A stretch of DNA of 64,000 nucleotides from Pseudodesulfovibrio profundus (GTDB lineage: Bacteria; Desulfobacterota; Desulfovibrionia; Desulfovibrionales; Desulfovibrionaceae): NCBI RefSeq assembly GCF_900217235.1, contig NZ_LT907975.1, positions 1,773,001 to 1,837,000 on the forward strand, in the 5' to 3' direction. A program made the translations under genes and the position numbers. The notes beneath the pieces were generated by a model that searched no databases, had not been told where the DNA came from, and worked only from the letters and a program-made list of their open reading frames with translations. Below, piece after piece: positions 1-6,223 of this stretch (positions are counted from its first letter, which is position 1; each line of letters starts with the position of its first letter).

Positions 1-1127
1 TGCTCGGCAACTGGGACCGTCCCGGTGGCCTGCTGGCCGCCCGAGCAGTGGGACTCAAGGGCGTTCCCTATGATGCCCCCTGGTATGACGACAACCATTT
101 CGAGCGCGTGGACGGCAACAAGGTACCCATGATGTTCGAGCATGAAGGCTCGTTCCTCATCACCCGTGACGCCATTCTCGCCGACGATCCGTACGAAATC
201 CGCGGCTGGCTGGTCTACAAGACCAACCCCATGGGTACGGCCCCCAACCGGCAGAAAACCATCGAGATGATGAACAAAATGGACTTCATCACGGTCATCG
301 ATATCGCCATGTCCGACACGGCATGGTTTGCCGATCTCGTGCTGCCGTCCCAGTCCTATCTGGAGCGCTACGATCCCTGTTCGGGATTGCAGGGCTCAAG
401 CGCCTGCGCCTGCGTGGTCAAACGCGACCCCGTTGTCGATCCGCTGTACGAATCGCGGCCCTGTTTTGATATCATGAAAGACCTGGCCAACCGGATGGAG
501 CTTGGCGAATACTTCGACTTCACCATCCCCGAGTACCGTGAGAAGCAATTGGAAGAACTGCCGCACGCCGAGGAAATTCTCGACCGCGACGGCGTCTACT
601 ACAACCCGTCCAAGGTCTACGGCATCTATGAGGGCAAGGTGTACAAGACCCTGTCCAAGAAGATCGAGCTGTACAACCAGCGATACGAGAAGATGGGCAT
701 CGACCCGCTGCCGAGCTACACACCGCCGGTCAAGGTCCCGAAAAACCAGTTCCGGCTGATCATCGGCCGCGACGCCATGACGACGCAGTCGTCCACGGCC
801 AACAATTCACTGCTCAACGAGTTCAACCCCACCAACACGCTGTGGATCAACACGGCCAAGGCCCAGCAACTGGGCATCGCCAATGGCGAAACCGTGGTTG
901 TTTCCAGCCCGGTGGGAACGCAGGAGCTGCAGGCCGAGGTCACGGACCGTATCCGCGAGGATGCCGTCTACATGCTCACCGGCTACAACACCCTGTCCAC
1001 CATGCAACATCTCGCTCACGGCAACGGGGCGTCCATCAACGAGCTTCTGGTCGATGACTATGACACCGTGACGGGCAACGCCTCCATGCACACCACGTTT
1101 GTCACCGTAACAAGGAAGGTGGCGTAA
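1..1127 (+). CDS. Molybdopterin oxidoreductase catalytic subunit, PsrA/PhsA type (5' end missing)
   Basis: The reading frame is open from base 3, so the gene begins before the window; 374 residues of the C-terminal part are visible. The motif LGNWDRPGG near the left edge and the C-terminal molydopterin-dinucleotide-binding domain (from about IIGRDAMTT to the end) are typical of the DMSO-reductase family. The best fit is the polysulfide/thiosulfate reductase branch, because an iron-sulfur subunit, a cytochrome b subunit and rhodanese genes follow directly. The family works outside the cytoplasmic membrane, reducing or oxidising sulfur compounds with electrons exchanged through the B and C subunits. 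The stop codon overlaps the next start by one base (TAATG), which indicates translational coupling. The N-terminal cluster and Mo ligand (Cys, Sec or Ser) lie outside the window, so the substrate cannot be fixed. Confidence 0.9.
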   Translation, partial: LGNWDRPGGLLAARAVGLKGVPYDAPWYDDNHFERVDGNKVPMMFEHEGSFLITRDAILADDPYEIRGWLVYKTNPMGTAPNRQKTIEMMNKMDFITVIDIAMSDTAWFADLVLPSQSYLERYDPCSGLQGSSACACVVKRDPVVDPLYESRPCFDIMKDLANRMELGEYFDFTIPEYREKQLEELPHAEEILDRDGVYYNPSKVYGIYEGKVYKTLSKKIELYNQRYEKMGIDPLPSYTPPVKVPKNQFRLIIGRDAMTTQSSTANNSLLNEFNPTNTLWINTAKAQQLGIANGETVVVSSPVGTQELQAEVTDRIREDAVYMLTGYNTLSTMQHLAHGNGASINELLVDDYDTVTGNASMHTTFVTVTRKVA

Positions 1128-1876
1128 TGGCACATCAACTGGCAATGGTCATCGATGCGACCAAATGCATCGACTGCAAGGGATGCGTCGCCGCCTGCAA
1201 GGTGGCAAACGACGTACCCGAAGGGCAGTGGCGCAACTGGATCAAGGTGGACGAAACCATACCGGCTCCAGGCCTCCTTCCCAAGCGCAAGGCACGCTTC
1301 CAGCCCGGAGCCTGCATGCATTGCGATATTCCGTCCTGCGTTGACGCCTGTCCGACCGGCGCAACCTACAAGAATATCGACACCGGCGAAGTCATCATCA
1401 ACGAGGACCTGTGCATCGGCTGCGGCAACTGCATTCCGGCCTGCCCATACGGGGCGCGCTTCCGCAATGAGCAGAAGCGCAAAGCCGACAAGTGCAACTA
1501 CTGCCCGGAACGCCGCGCACAGGGCATCCCTCCGGCATGCGTAGACACCTGCCCGACCAAGGCACGGGTATTCGGCGACATCAACGACCCGGAGAGCGAA
1601 GCCGGACGTCTGTATCAAAAAAACAAGGACAGCCTGAAGCGTATCATCGCCAAAACCGAGACCATGCCCAACATGTACTACCTCGGTGATCCCGGCGTGA
1701 CGGACTGGGCTGGCGAAGCGGTCATGCCCGCTTCCATGCTCGCCATGAAGGAGAGCGCGCCGTTCATCAAGGGTATCGTCGGCCTTTCGGGCCTTGGTGT
1801 TCTGGCCATGCTGGCCCGCCAACTGTTCGTCGATTCGCCTGAAGAAACGAGCGGCAAGGAGGACTCCGATGCCTAA
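1127..1876 (+). CDS. 4Fe-4S ferredoxin subunit of the molybdoenzyme (PsrB/PhsB/DmsB-like)
   Basis: This 249-residue protein carries sixteen cysteines in four clusters: C14/17/20/24, C63/66/71/75, C96/99/102/106 and C123/126/138/142. This is the four-[4Fe-4S] pattern of electron-transfer subunits in the DMSO-reductase family. It passes electrons between the catalytic subunit and the membrane cytochrome. A hydrophobic stretch at about residues 210-232 looks like a C-terminal membrane anchor, as in HybA or FdnH, and would hold the subunit at the membrane. There is no signal peptide, so export would depend on the catalytic partner. It overlaps both neighbours (1 base upstream, 8 bases downstream), so the three genes form a tight operon. 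Confidence 0.93.
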   Translation: MAHQLAMVIDATKCIDCKGCVAACKVANDVPEGQWRNWIKVDETIPAPGLLPKRKARFQPGACMHCDIPSCVDACPTGATYKNIDTGEVIINEDLCIGCGNCIPACPYGARFRNEQKRKADKCNYCPERRAQGIPPACVDTCPTKARVFGDINDPESEAGRLYQKNKDSLKRIIAKTETMPNMYYLGDPGVTDWAGEAVMPASMLAMKESAPFIKGIVGLSGLGVLAMLARQLFVDSPEETSGKEDSDA

Positions 1877-2588
1877 AATCATGCACAAACGACACGACAA
1901 GTCAGATATCTTCATCCACTGGTACAACGCGGTTTGCTGGATTCTCCTGCTGGTCACCGGCGTGGGGCTTATCCAGCACCAGGCCATCGACCCGTTCGGG
2001 TCCGGCTATCCCGAGGCATTGCGCAACATGGTCGGCGGCGGGGGCAACCTGCTACGCATCCATGAGGGCATCGGCCTGGCCTGGATCGCCGGGTTCATCA
2101 TCTATCTGATCATCAACTTCAAGGGCGCCATGTTCTTTCTTTCCGAGGTCTTTCCTGTCTCCATCGGACGGGACATGACCTGGATGTTCAAGAAGATGGT
2201 CCTGATGACACTGGGGCCCAACGTCCTCAAGAAGATGGGCGTGGACCCGGAACTGCCGGATCAGGGATTTTACAACATGGGACAGAAAGCCTTTGCCCAG
2301 GCCAGTGTGGTCGGTGGTGTGGTTATCGCTGTTACCGGCGTGATCATGTACCTGTCCGACCGCTCTTTCGGGACGGAAGCCACCGGTCTGGTCAGTTGGT
2401 CCATATTCATCCACTTCATCGCAGTGGGGCTGGTCTTTGCCGGTCTGCTGGTACACGTCTACATGGCTGCCATATCCAAGGAGGAACGCCCTGGATTCAA
2501 GTCCATGTTCACCGGTGTCGTGCCGGACGATTATGCCAAGCATCACCACCGCCTGTGGTGGAACAAGGTCAAAGCCGGGGGCAAGTAG
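1869..2588 (+). CDS. Membrane cytochrome b subunit (formate dehydrogenase gamma / PsrC-like role)
   Basis: The ATG at 1869 lies inside the last codons of the ferredoxin gene and gives a 239-residue protein. It has about four membrane segments (first near residues 16-35, last containing FIHFIAVGLVFAGLL). Histidines sit in the early HDKSDIFIHWYN motif and in the later segments, as in di-heme cytochrome b of the formate dehydrogenase gamma/Ni-Fe hydrogenase type. It should link the periplasmic molybdoenzyme to the quinone pool. An upstream in-frame start exists but would add residues encoded by the neighbour's coding region, so it was not used. It is a heme-type anchor, not the heme-free NrfD type found in classical PsrC. 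Confidence 0.9.
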   Translation: MPKIMHKRHDKSDIFIHWYNAVCWILLLVTGVGLIQHQAIDPFGSGYPEALRNMVGGGGNLLRIHEGIGLAWIAGFIIYLIINFKGAMFFLSEVFPVSIGRDMTWMFKKMVLMTLGPNVLKKMGVDPELPDQGFYNMGQKAFAQASVVGGVVIAVTGVIMYLSDRSFGTEATGLVSWSIFIHFIAVGLVFAGLLVHVYMAAISKEERPGFKSMFTGVVPDDYAKHHHRLWWNKVKAGGK

Positions 2589-2683: not shown

Positions 2684-3784
2684 ATGCACAAGCGATTACT
2701 TGCCGTCTTCATGATGATGGCACTGACAATGACAGTCATGGCCGGGGCGGCCGCGGCTGAAGAAGGCAAACAGCCGACGTTCAAGGAATTCCATTCCATC
2801 GTTGACTACAAATACGTGGCGAAATACGCCAAGATGCCAAAGCCCAACGGGGTCATGATCGTTGACTCGCGCCCCTACAAACCGAAATTCGTTGCCGGTT
2901 ACATCCCGACTGCCGTGTCCATTCCGACCAGCCAGTTTGACAAGATGACCGACCTGCTGCCCGCAAACAAGGATGACCTGCTCATCTTCTATTGCGGCGG
3001 TTTCAAGTGCGCTCTCTCCCACAAGGCGGCATGGAAAGCAGAGAAGCTCGGCTACACCAACGTCAAGGTTTACGCCGCCGGTTTCCCGGATTTCAAGAAG
3101 CATCATCCGTACTACTCCATCGGTCTGGAGACCCTTAACGACATGATCGCCAACGGTGATCAGTACGCACTGGTCGACGCTCGTCCGTACAAAAAGTATC
3201 TGTCCGGTGCCATCCCGTCCGCCATCGGTATTCCCGAGCGCGAATTTGCCGACAAGCGCGGCATGCTGCCCGTGGACAAGGCCGGAACCGCACTGGTCTA
3301 CTACTGCGGCGGTTACAAGTGCGCTCTGTCCCACAAGTCCGCCATCAAGGCCCGCTACCTTGGCTACAAGAAGGTCATGGTCGCCGAAGCCGGCTACCCC
3401 GGCTGGAAGGAAATGTTCGGCGGTGCTGACGCCGTGCAGGTCAAGGCTGGCGCAATGGAAGGAGCCGTGGATACCGAGTGGTTCCTGGCAACCATCAAGA
3501 GCAACCCGGACGCCATCACATTGATCGACGTTCGCGACCCGGAAGAATACGCAGCCGGTCACTTCCCGTCCGCCATCAACATGCCTGTCGACATGGTGGA
3601 AAAGAAGGCCAAGGAAATCCCCACGGACAAGCCCATCGTCTTCTCCTGCGCCACCGGTGCACGAGCTGGCGAAGCCTACTACCTGTTCATGGATCTGGTG
3701 CCTGATGCCAAGAACGTCTACTACCTTGAAGCCACCAACGACTTCAACGAAGACAATACCTATGAAGTACATCCCAACAAGTAG
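2684..3784 (+). CDS. Exported triple-rhodanese-domain sulfurtransferase
   Basis: The 366-residue protein starts with a signal peptide (residues 1 to about 25, ending in an Ala-rich stretch). Three rhodanese-like domains follow. The first two have near-identical active loops CGGFKCALS (C104, C109) and CGGYKCALS (C208, C213); the third has a different loop, CATGARAG (C322). Rhodaneses move sulfane sulfur as a cysteine persulfide, so this protein could deliver or collect sulfur for the molybdoenzyme in the periplasm. The first two domains are clearly an internal duplication. A good ribosome site (GGAAGGGAG region) precedes the ATG. It is separated from the cytochrome gene by 95 bases with no evident terminator, so cotranscription is possible. 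Confidence 0.92.
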   Translation: MHKRLLAVFMMMALTMTVMAGAAAAEEGKQPTFKEFHSIVDYKYVAKYAKMPKPNGVMIVDSRPYKPKFVAGYIPTAVSIPTSQFDKMTDLLPANKDDLLIFYCGGFKCALSHKAAWKAEKLGYTNVKVYAAGFPDFKKHHPYYSIGLETLNDMIANGDQYALVDARPYKKYLSGAIPSAIGIPEREFADKRGMLPVDKAGTALVYYCGGYKCALSHKSAIKARYLGYKKVMVAEAGYPGWKEMFGGADAVQVKAGAMEGAVDTEWFLATIKSNPDAITLIDVRDPEEYAAGHFPSAINMPVDMVEKKAKEIPTDKPIVFSCATGARAGEAYYLFMDLVPDAKNVYYLEATNDFNEDNTYEVHPNK

Positions 3785-3882
3785 GGATTGACCATTAACC
3801 GCGGGATTGGAGGTCGGACTCCGGTTCATCTCCCACCCTCCGATCCCGCATCCTGTTGCACAAGACAGGGCAAGGAGCACGC

Positions 3883-4893
3883 ATGATGAAAACTACTTCC
3901 TCCATTGTAGTTGTGCTTCTTGTCCTGTGTCTTTTTCTTCCGAATGCAGCCCGATGTGCGGACGAAGAGATATGGTGGGAATCGGCGCGGGAGGAAGCCG
4001 ATAAAGAAGGGTACAAGCTCATCAACACCAAGGAACTGGCCGAAATTCTCGATTCAGACTCCACCGCCATCATTGTTGATGTACGTGCGGATTATGAATT
4101 CATGGCCGGCCACATCCCCGATGCCGAGAATATGGAGTTCGACCTCGGTGACCGGATGGGACTTTCCGACGAGAAGCGAACCGCTTTCACGGAGTTGATA
4201 GGTGGCGACAAACAGCGTCGGGTGATCATCTACTGCCGGAGCTTCAGGTGACTGCGCTCCAGCATTGCGGCGCACTGGGCAGTGCGTCTCGGATACACCG
4301 AAGTCTATCGGTATCCCGGCGGGTTTCACCGCTGGCAGGAAACGCATCCCGAACAGGTGGTAGGTGATGATTCAGCCAAGAAGGTTCTGGCAGTGGGCGA
4401 TCTGTTCCCCGACTGTCGAGTGGCGGTGCTCAACGGCGAGGATGACCGAGAATATCTCGGCCTGCCGCCGGGAACACGCTGGCTGTCTCTCTCGGACCTC
4501 AAGGCAAAGTTTGTTCTTATCCAACTCTACAACACCCTGTGCAGCGACTGTGTGGCCGAAACAAAAATGCTCACCCGCTTCTTCCGCAAGGTGCAGGCTG
4601 ACGCGTTTCTGGCTGACAATCTCAAAATCATCGGCCTCGGCGTGTACGACACCAACCGGGATGTGGTGCGCTTCAAGAAACACTATAACGTACTGTATCC
4701 GCTCTTTTCGGACAGTCACGGACAGATATTCGAATGCCTCGGACAGGCAGAACTGCCCCTGGCCTATCTGGTGCGATCCCAGGGCGATGGCACATGGATC
4801 ATTGAATTGGTGAAACGAGGATACTTCGAACCGGACGACACGTTCCTTGATACGCTGCGGGGCGCCATTGAAACGCCGATAACCGCCGATTAA
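3883..4893 (+). CDS. Probable selenoprotein: exported rhodanese-like domain fused to a thioredoxin-like domain (in-frame TGA read as Sec123)
   Basis: Translation from ATG 3883 (AAGGAG at 3872-3877) reaches TGA at 4249-4251, and the same frame stays open to 4893. Read-through gives 336 residues. Residues 1 to about 25 are a signal peptide and about 45-150 a rhodanese-like domain with the loop YCRSFRU. The rest is a thioredoxin/AhpC-like domain with a CSDC redox motif at 220-223. In the adjacent triple-rhodanese protein the matching position is the second Cys of CGGFKC, with the same five-residue spacing. An 8-bp hairpin with a GGGC loop lies 25 bases after the TGA, as bacterial SECIS elements require. 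I infer selenocysteine rather than a nonsense mutation, because the frame, domain and spacing are all intact. The substrate is unknown; persulfide or disulfide chemistry in sulfur respiration is likely. Confidence 0.85.
4249..4288 (+). promoter_or_regulatory. Candidate bacterial SECIS element for the rhodanese selenoprotein
   Basis: The element starts with the UGA at 4249-4251. The stem pairs 4269-4276 with 4281-4288 (six Watson-Crick pairs CGCACT/AGTGCG, then one G-U and one G-C pair). The apical loop GGGC is at 4277-4280. The spacer of 25 bases between UGA and loop, the small loop and the G at its first position fit the known bacterial SECIS rules (about 16-37 bases). The hairpin lies within the coding sequence. 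Confidence 0.75.
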
Positions 4894-5522
4894 GTCCTGA
4901 CGGTCTCAAGGACGGCGACCATGCACCGCGTGGCAGCCGCAAAGACCGCATGGGGATGACCGTCGGCAAGTCTGGCATCGAAACGGCGCACCCAGGCTAG
5001 CATATCGCCTGCGAAGACTCGGCCCTGCGCTTCCAGATCGGAACGGTCTTCCGCCCAACCATGGGCGAGGAGATGGTAGAGATATTCCAGCTCAAGGGAG
5101 AGGTGATCCGGCGGTTCGTTGGACGGAAGGTCCACTTCGAGTCCGGCCTCGCTTAGACGATGCTGCATGGCAAGGGCTGCGTCGCCCATGACGGCCGGAG
5201 TATCGCCTTCGTAACAGGATTCATAAAGCGGTGCGACAACGCCGCCCCGGCCTGCGACGAAAAGGCGAACGTACTCGGACTGAACATCCTCAATGATTTC
5301 AGGCGAATCAGACATGGGCAAAATAGCGGCTTGCAGTTTTTCAATATGAGCCGTAAGGTGCCCGGTGGTTTTCGGAGGCCGTGCGGCCAGTTCGGGAACC
5401 GCCTTTTCGGACAGCATTGTCCATCCGCTGGAATCAGGACCACGGAATATGGCGGCCAACAGTTCGATGACATTGAGTATATAGAGCCGCTTGTCGCGAT
5501 CGACGAGTTGATTGACGGGCAT
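4890..5522 (-). CDS. TorD/DmsD-family molybdoenzyme chaperone
   Basis: The 210-residue protein matches the all-helical TorD family, with the segments YVRLFVAGRGGVVAPLYES and PDHLSLELEYLYHLL near the usual conserved positions. Such proteins bind the leader and apoprotein of DMSO-reductase-type enzymes and hold them for cofactor insertion before Tat export. The client is most likely the molybdoenzyme at the left edge of the window. AAGGAGG six bases before the ATG supports the start. The gene is convergent with the selenoprotein gene, their stop codons overlapping, and divergent from the CstR-like regulator. Confidence 0.88.
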   Translation of the reverse strand: MPVNQLVDRDKRLYILNVIELLAAIFRGPDSSGWTMLSEKAVPELAARPPKTTGHLTAHIEKLQAAILPMSDSPEIIEDVQSEYVRLFVAGRGGVVAPLYESCYEGDTPAVMGDAALAMQHRLSEAGLEVDLPSNEPPDHLSLELEYLYHLLAHGWAEDRSDLEAQGRVFAGDMLAWVRRFDARLADGHPHAVFAAATRCMVAVLETVRT

Positions 5523-5566: not shown

Positions 5567-5632
5567 CGGTAAAGCCATGTTTTCGGCAACACTATACCGC
5601 CCGCAACATGCCATAGCTGTGAGGAGATGGCG

Positions 5633-5929
5633 ATGAACACTGCAGCGAGTAAAATGGAACAGGAAGCGATAAAGAAAAACGTGCTCTCGCGCATGAAGCG
5701 CATTGAAGGGCAGGTTCGTGGCATCCAGGGCATGATCGAAAGCGGCAAGGAATGCGAAGATATCCTTGTTCAGGTTCGGGCTGTTCGCTCGGCCCTGCAA
5801 TCGGCCAACAAACTCATCCTGAAGCGCTATCTTCTGAAGTGCCACGCCGATTCGCTGGAAAACGGCGAATCCCACGATGAGTCCCTCGAAAAATTCATCA
5901 AGGTCCTGACCGGATTCCTTGACGGATAG
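5633..5929 (+). CDS. CsoR-family repressor, CstR-like persulfide sensor
   Basis: The 98-residue all-helical protein belongs to the DUF156/CsoR family. C41 and C70 are 29 residues apart, the same spacing as the two reactive Cys of CstR and CsoR. The position four before C70, a copper-binding His in CsoR, is Tyr66 here. This pattern (two Cys, no His) points to a sulfane-sulfur sensor that forms di- or polysulfide links, not to a copper sensor. GAGGAG at 5621-5626 abuts an earlier ATG at 5627, so the ATG at 5633 is the better start. The surrounding rhodaneses and the matching operator upstream support regulation of sulfur metabolism. Nickel or formaldehyde sensors (RcnR/FrmR) are excluded by the residues seen. 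Confidence 0.85.
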   Translation: MNTAASKMEQEAIKKNVLSRMKRIEGQVRGIQGMIESGKECEDILVQVRAVRSALQSANKLILKRYLLKCHADSLENGESHDESLEKFIKVLTGFLDG

Positions 5930-5962: not shown

Positions 5963-6223
5963 ATGAAACACCTACTGATGACCATCTGCCTGATGGCAGC
6001 CTTGGCCATGCCTGCAATGGCGGACACCAACTACGACGTTTGCTTCAGCTCCCTTGATATCGACGGGAACGGCTCCATTTCAAAAAGCGAATTTCTCATA
6101 GCCTTCTCTGATGGCGACATGGGGCTCTTCGACGAAGCCGACGGTAACGAAGATGGTGACGTCACCCATGAGGAATGGGAAGAATTCAAGGCCGGTAAGG
6201 GTTTTGAGGAAGGCGACGCATAA
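5963..6223 (+). CDS. Small exported EF-hand calcium-binding protein
   Basis: The 86-residue protein has a signal peptide (about residues 1-20, AMA-DT cleavage) and two EF-hand loops: DIDGNGSISKSE and DGNEDGDVTHEE. Both show the D-x-[DN]-x-[DN]-G pattern with a final Glu, so calcium binding in the periplasm is likely. It follows the CstR-like gene by 33 bases on the same strand and may be in its transcript. A strong terminator comes right after. No enzymatic domain is visible and the partner is unknown. Confidence 0.85.
   Translation: MKHLLMTICLMAALAMPAMADTNYDVCFSSLDIDGNGSISKSEFLIAFSDGDMGLFDEADGNEDGDVTHEEWEEFKAGKGFEEGDA

Follow-up and report, generated by a model that had tools for sequence, protein, structure and literature searches.

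A rhodanese-thioredoxin fusion gene with an in-frame TGA almost certainly read as selenocysteine, located in a PhsA-like molybdoenzyme operon

The locus and the rhoU-Trx product

The window, by which we mean the whole stretch of 64,000 nucleotides that was analyzed (G000:C1:1773001-1837000, from a 4.2-Mb genome), opens inside an operon that encodes, in this order, a molybdoenzyme, a 4Fe-4S subunit, a cytochrome b561, a triple-rhodanese protein and the product of a gene named here rhoU-Trx, and that is followed by genes for a TorD-type chaperone and a CsoR-family repressor (Table 1). The complete frame of the molybdoenzyme has 729 aa and starts about 1,060 bases ahead of the window (L091:8939-11128); PhsA (NF012032) is the family that it matches best, yet the score lies below the cut-off of that model. 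Between the triple-rhodanese gene and rhoU-Trx there is a 13-nt inverted repeat (3801-3813 and 3837-3849, 92% complementary, with a 23-nt spacer), which may be an attenuator or a processing site. A small, exported-looking EF-hand protein (window positions 5963-6223) adjoins the repressor, as it also does in several relatives.

Table 1. Coordinates of the genes and features at the locus, in window positions
Feature	Position	Strand	Details
PhsA-like molybdoenzyme gene, 3' part	48..1127	+	PhsA NF012032 539.7 bits, cut-off 694
4Fe-4S electron-transfer subunit (B)	1127..1876	+	PF13247 89.7 bits
Cytochrome b561-type membrane subunit (C)	1869..2588	+	PF01292 70.4 bits
Triple-rhodanese paralogue	2684..3784	+	366 aa; PF00581, 3 stretches, 145.4 bits
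rhoU-Trx, rhodanese-thioredoxin selenoprotein gene	3883..4893	+	336 aa with TGA as Sec
Apparent signal peptide, residues 1 to ~25	3883..3957	+	By eye: hydrophobic stretch, then AAR-C-A
Rhodanese domain, residues 49-153	4027..4341	+	PF00581 65.6 bits, cut-off 22.2
Cys118, active-site loop cysteine of the rhodanese domain	4234..4236	+	Invariant in 33-row alignment A3
In-frame TGA, Sec123, sixth loop residue (C-x4-U)	4249..4251	+	67 TGA and 12 Cys among 79 distinct rows
Candidate bacterial SECIS hairpin, 8 bp, loop GGGC	4269..4288	+	4269-4276 pairs with 4281-4288
ResA/TlpA-like thioredoxin domain, residues 167-330	4381..4872	+	PF00578 33.5 bits, cut-off 26; Foldseek ResA
C220-S-D-C223, CxxC of the thioredoxin domain	4540..4551	+	CxxC in 37/39 full-length fusions
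TorD/DmsD-type molybdoenzyme chaperone	4890..5522	-	PF02613 85 bits; convergent with rhoU-Trx
CsoR-family repressor	5627..5929	+	Cys43 and Cys72; PF02583 93.5 bits

The frame of rhoU-Trx begins with the ATG at 3883, passes through the TGA at codon 123 and ends with the TAA at 4891-4893, and no other stop lies between. Computation shows that its product joins a rhodanese domain to a ResA-like thioredoxin domain. The first belongs to PF00581 both by its score and by the presence of the loop cysteine, and the second belongs to the AhpC/TSA-redoxin fold (PF00578) by a score above the cut-off and by its CxxC motif, here CSDC. Sequence-profile matches included the rhodanese 6mxv (E 1.7e-15), ResA 3c73 (E 1.2e-12) and 1qxn, deposited as a sulfide dehydrogenase (E 9.5e-5), and Foldseek, run against a PDB library only, returned mainly thioredoxin folds, with ResA 1su9_B as the best match (E 8.8e-9). 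The AlphaFold2 model has a mean pLDDT of 86.4 and a pTM of 0.63, a value at which the relative placement of the two domains is unsure, though both folds are clear. The product is apparently exported, as judged by eye from its signal peptide, and a similar hydrophobic N-terminus is found in aligned relatives.

The rhodanese loop reads Y-C118-RSFR-U123-L, with four residues separating Cys118 from the TGA. Domains 1 and 2 of the triple-rhodanese paralogue carry the loops YCGGFKC and YCGGYKC (C-x4-C), and its domain 3 has the loop SCATGAR, with a single cysteine and no second one. The initial annotation of this DNA had placed the TGA, in a frame open on both sides, at the position of the second cysteine of the CGGFKC motif with its spacing kept, and had described a signal peptide, a thioredoxin-like domain with CSDC and a rhodanese-thioredoxin layout within a molybdoenzyme locus. 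The frame, the spacing (C-x4-U against C-x4-C), the domain and the layout were all borne out, the signal peptide stands as an apparent one, and layout and neighbourhood recur in relatives. To these observations we add the wide occurrence of Sec/Cys alternation, the existence of Sec-bearing paralogues, the conservation of the operon and the link to the TsoB family.

Decoding of the in-frame TGA

Some match to rhoU-Trx was found in 117 of 197 genomes by the first search, and many of these matches were other rhodaneses or thioredoxin domains alone. We therefore speak below of 58 loci, which come from the 57 best-matching genomes, down to E 7.5e-29 and with the genome of the window included, and from G174 (E 7.9e-21), added because of its TGA; G194 was left out, its match covering the thioredoxin domain only. 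Codon 123 is TGA in 51 of these loci and a cysteine codon, TGC or TGT, in the other seven. A second collection of genome records gave 40 loci, of which 29 have TGA, nine have Cys and two are ordinary rhodaneses. After the removal of 17 duplicate loci and of the two ordinary rhodaneses (L156 and L157, with GGA and GGC at the site), 79 distinct rows were left for a tree: 67 with TGA, 12 with Cys and none with any other residue. This tree demands at least six changes between Sec and Cys, five of them forced by well-supported branches, so that the site has repeatedly been swapped between these two residues and never, in what was seen, to anything else. When 395 genomes sampled from the phylum were searched, 58 of them gave a match with an E-value of 1e-30 or lower, and six full-length fusions were present, that of the window included, three with TGA and three with Cys; consequently, the feature is restricted and not phylum-wide. 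The five full-length relatives from this sample (two TGA, three Cys) stand outside the tree and may overlap with its rows.

The sequence that follows the TGA evolves as coding sequence. In ten of ten closely related pairs, dN/dS after the TGA was between 0.026 and 0.183, which denotes purifying selection, and over the 85 codons before it the same pairs gave 0.051 to 0.400. Furthermore, 19 of the 58 loci are stand-alone homologues that lack the thioredoxin domain, in which the 31 to 52 codons counted from the site complete the rhodanese fold; a tail that does nothing but close this fold would be useless by itself and is too short for a separate gene.

The genome also encodes the machinery for selenocysteine: selB (383.8 bits, cut-off 242), tRNA-Sec (78.4 bits, cut-off 47, and called tRNA-SeC with anticodon tca by ARAGORN), and selA and selD (615.7 and 327.7 bits), both above their curated cut-offs. 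Among 64 genomes examined, selA was found in 63, the miss being G170, which is 77% complete; since the gene is also present in genomes with Cys at codon 123, a cysteine there is no sign that the Sec machinery has been lost. The selD gene (L088, C1:1718920-1719849) has itself one in-frame TGA, and a Sec codon within SelD is known from other organisms. A second rhodanese selenoprotein is encoded elsewhere in the same genome (L083:582-998, C1 about 2819581-2819997), and it is of the CxU form NF041203 (159.1 bits, cut-off 115).

If the TGA were a true stop, the locus would encode a truncated rhodanese of 122 residues and a separate downstream protein, and mechanical lists of open reading frames do give two frames here, one of 131 aa (3856-4251) and one of 203 aa (4282-4893). 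We regard this as highly improbable in view of the alternation of TGA and Cys at a single codon in all 79 rows, with no other stop codon there, of the purifying selection directly past the TGA, of the complete Sec machinery, and of the stand-alone forms in which just the end of the rhodanese fold comes after the site. A pseudogene or a sequencing error was also considered and is out, since the pattern recurs in 66 other distinct rows. The gene has the features of a bacterial selenoprotein, namely coding sequence before and after the TGA, exchange of Sec and Cys, and SelA, SelB, SelD and tRNA-Sec in the genome, and the TGA at 4249-4251 is almost certainly decoded as Sec. This certainty comes from the codon pattern and not from the hairpin discussed below. 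The selenoprotein reading of the initial annotation, for which it had proposed looking at the sel genes and at the residue found in homologues, is consequently supported by the codon pattern, the machinery and the selection after the TGA, the homologues carrying TGA or Cys and not random residues. Gene finders stop at TGA, and rhoU-Trx is for this reason likely to be misannotated as a short rhodanese and a loose fragment; among sulfate reducers, such misannotation would touch a component that recurs in a sulfur-respiration operon.

The hairpin of 8 bp around a GGGC loop, which the initial annotation had also pointed out, is present, its loop starting 25 nt past the TGA, and the evidence on it as a SECIS element is mixed: a synonymous-site bias backs it, but global folding tests and RNAalifold do not. 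The synonymous-site test covered 24 Sec loci, all of them relatives within one genus-level group, and in codons 7, 8, 10 and 11 past the TGA the third base was the pairing one in 20, 21, 21 and 23 of them, against 6.6, 6.1, 2.1 and 8.0 expected from the rest of the gene. Third positions are mixed at codon 14, just beyond the hairpin; a bias is also seen at codons 1-6 and 12-13, which lie outside it, so that common descent may account for part of the bias. At the paired columns 26 and 35, two rows have replaced G-C by A-U, a switch that involved two amino-acid substitutions, and a register shifted by 2 has three pairs with double changes, against two in the register of the hairpin. Folded alone, the hairpin reaches -10.9 kcal/mol (z -2.87), better than 198 of 200 shuffles, and the 52 nt from the TGA onward show no special folding (z +0.14, with 101 of 200 shuffles folding as well). 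When 36-nt folds were compared with synonymous resampling, they were better (p<0.05) in no more than 5 of the 51 Sec loci, with a mean z of -0.56, against -0.29 in the seven Cys loci, and RNAalifold preferred another structure. By eye, other families show other hairpin registers.

Conservation of the operon and possible function

The association with the molybdoenzyme is kept across relatives. In 20 neighbourhoods, a non-random choice picked to span groups, the A-B-C subunits are all present in 19, the remaining one being at a contig end, TorD is present in 16 and the CsoR-family repressor in 15. In the second collection at least one of the A-B-C subunits lies within the fetched DNA for 35 of 38 homologues; L128 and L155 have none of them in the 6 kb upstream, and L130 starts at a contig edge. 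In L128, rhoU-Trx is accompanied by the rhodanese and TorD in a changed gene order. No in-frame stops were seen in the matches to the A, B and C subunits, obtained in 50, 53 and 53 of the 58 loci.

In the repressor, a Tyr replaces the copper-ligand His of CsoR when aligned to 4m1p and 7mq1, and Cys-Tyr-Cys is kept in all of the 25 loci, out of 30, that yielded a repressor match, several of these loci being duplicates. CstR proteins share the fold of CsoR, have two Cys and lack the His that binds copper in CsoR. The repressor shows this same pattern, and its residues are as expected of a persulfide-sensing CstR. According to one study, CstR homologues are frequent repressors of rhodaneses (PMC10318464).

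The triple-rhodanese paralogue has TGA at the equivalent second cysteine in six other genomes, five of family f2 (G118, G166, G170, G147 and G143) and G019, where it falls in domain 1. The G019 locus (L012) belongs to a draft assembly of 370 contigs, in which a sequencing error is possible; the other five are mutually consistent. These codons indicate that Sec arose at the matching site in two paralogues of one operon. At L072 (G166, minus strand) both paralogue positions are TGA, giving Y-U-QNLA-U, a U-x4-U loop of the TsoB type outside TsoB.

We lean, if only slightly, towards the view that the exported 336-residue selenoprotein is a reductive outlet or a sulfur-supply partner of the PhsA-like complex, acting through a Cys-Sec and thioredoxin relay. 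In the chemistry that we infer for this relay (C-x4-U plus CxxC), Cys118 would form a persulfide by accepting sulfane sulfur, the source of which may be polysulfide, thiosulfate or the rhodanese encoded next to rhoU-Trx, and Sec123 would attack this persulfide, so that sulfide is freed and a Cys-Sec (S-Se) bridge remains. The CxxC of the fused thioredoxin (C220/C223) would then reduce the bridge, and the thioredoxin domain would be recharged by a DsbD-type membrane thiol relay, for which the genome offers one candidate, a protein with a DsbD transmembrane domain. By these steps rhoU-Trx could serve the molybdoenzyme complex of its own operon, either as reductive outlet or as sulfur supply. The proteins of the TsoB family, compared below, would follow the same principle, the membrane relay being part of the protein itself, and it is mainly this parallel that suggests a reductive role for rhoU-Trx.

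The main rival to the reductive relay is a Sud-like carrier, in which the Sec protein would supply the molybdoenzyme with polysulfide or persulfide sulfur that it does not itself reduce. Sec would accelerate the uptake and transfer of this sulfur, and the thioredoxin domain would guard the site against over-oxidation. The A-B-C subunits and two rhodaneses of the operon would suit such a carrier, as would the frequency of stand-alone forms without thioredoxin (19 of 58 loci) and the presence among the profile matches (E 9.5e-5) of 1qxn, which we take to be Sud, the Wolinella polysulfide-sulfur transferase. One cysteine would suffice for a carrier, yet a second chalcogen, Sec or Cys, is kept in all 79 rows and the CxxC in 37 of 39 full-length fusions; this points to a redox step, and we consider the carrier unlikely. 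Two fusions, L062 (G106) and L063 (G041), keep the Sec rhodanese and have lost the thioredoxin CxxC, and these, together with the 19 homologues without thioredoxin, indicate that this domain is not always required in cis.

Far less credible to us is a role in repair or protection, that is, de-persulfidation of periplasmic proteins or clearance of reactive sulfur under CstR-like control, with the molybdoenzyme as a mere neighbour. It would explain why a CstR-like repressor is close by in 15 of the 20 neighbourhoods, and persulfide-reducing thioredoxin-like proteins are reported from Staphylococcus (PMC6196236), but the link to the A-B-C subunits persists even in loci that lack the repressor or the thioredoxin domain (L097, L098, L103, L105 and L108).

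Returning to the relay, a selenium supply tied to periplasmic sulfur metabolism would follow if this reading is right. It would also provide a testable system, with natural Sec and Cys versions, a Cys paralogue adjoining (Sec elsewhere) and a reductant that is either built in or separate. As a tentative extension, which we consider less likely than not, the whole operon might be a selenium-dependent periplasmic sulfane-sulfur reductase, in which a PhsA/PsrA-like complex and two rhodaneses with loops of the C-x4-C, C-x4-U or U-x4-U type would pass on sulfur and electrons, Sec having been gained at the matching loop position in both paralogues and in TsoB. If true, this would be a new thiosulfate or polysulfide route in sulfate reducers of several orders.

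Comparison with known rhodaneses and selenoproteins

The C-x4-C rhodaneses, which comprise the operon paralogue and stand-alone proteins with YCGFxKC or YCGGxxC, have the same two-chalcogen loop as rhoU-Trx and differ from it in having Cys instead of Sec and in lacking the thioredoxin domain; ten such loci were found in the phylum sample (L164, L165, L167, L169-L174 and L176). The periplasmic thioredoxins ResA, TlpA and CcmG match the C-terminal domain, but rhoU-Trx has a rhodanese fused to it and scores 37.1 bits against a ResA cut-off of 170. Sud is a periplasmic rhodanese that works with a membrane-bound molybdoenzyme of Psr/Phs type, a setting like the one proposed for rhoU-Trx; unlike rhoU-Trx, it has one Cys per chain and is not known to have Sec or a thioredoxin domain.

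In an excerpt of a 2026 review, five forms of rhodanese selenoproteins are listed, UxxS, UxxG, CxU, UxxG and UxxxxU, with no CxxxxU in that list (PMC13188914), and an excerpt of a 2022 review has similar entries (PMC9312934). Forms 1, 2 and 4 (UxxS, UxxG and UxxG), as given in the former excerpt, share with rhoU-Trx a PF00581 domain with Sec, but their motif begins with U and has no Cys five residues ahead (PMC13188914). Form 3 (CxU, NF041203) is, like rhoU-Trx, an exported single rhodanese with Sec close to the loop Cys; its Sec lies two residues past this Cys, against five in rhoU-Trx, which scores 31.4 bits against the cut-off of 115 and is no member of NF041203. More generally, no NCBIfam model has a cut-off that rhoU-Trx reaches.

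The closest parallel is TsoB, a family reportedly named by Haft and Tolstoy in 2025. Both are found in Desulfobacterota, and in both an N-terminal anchored rhodanese carries Sec at the equal loop position and is fused to a thiol-redox module. TsoB differs in having U-x4-U, a DsbD transmembrane part and a thioredoxin, where rhoU-Trx has C-x4-U and a soluble ResA-like domain; in six of six TsoB-like loci (L112-L117) we found U-x4-U followed by the DsbD part and a CAPC, CTPC or CSPC thioredoxin motif, and L114 scores 978 bits with the TsoB model (NF045694). With the same model rhoU-Trx scores 110.5 bits (E 5.7e-32, residues 6-154, the rhodanese part only) against a cut-off of 805, so that membership in TsoB is out both by score and by layout. 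Thus, rhoU-Trx resembles TsoB but stands outside it, and the C-x4-U form is absent from the five named forms as excerpted (PMC13188914). The initial annotation had considered the layout little described, and we found no description of a C-x4-U rhodanese-thioredoxin fusion in the literature searched, a partial coverage in which a mention accompanying the naming of TsoB may have been missed; on the other hand, a very similar Sec rhodanese site has already been named in TsoB, so that the type of chemistry proposed for rhoU-Trx has a precedent. Conversely, if our reading of rhoU-Trx is right, it gives a hint at the role of the unexplained TsoB family.
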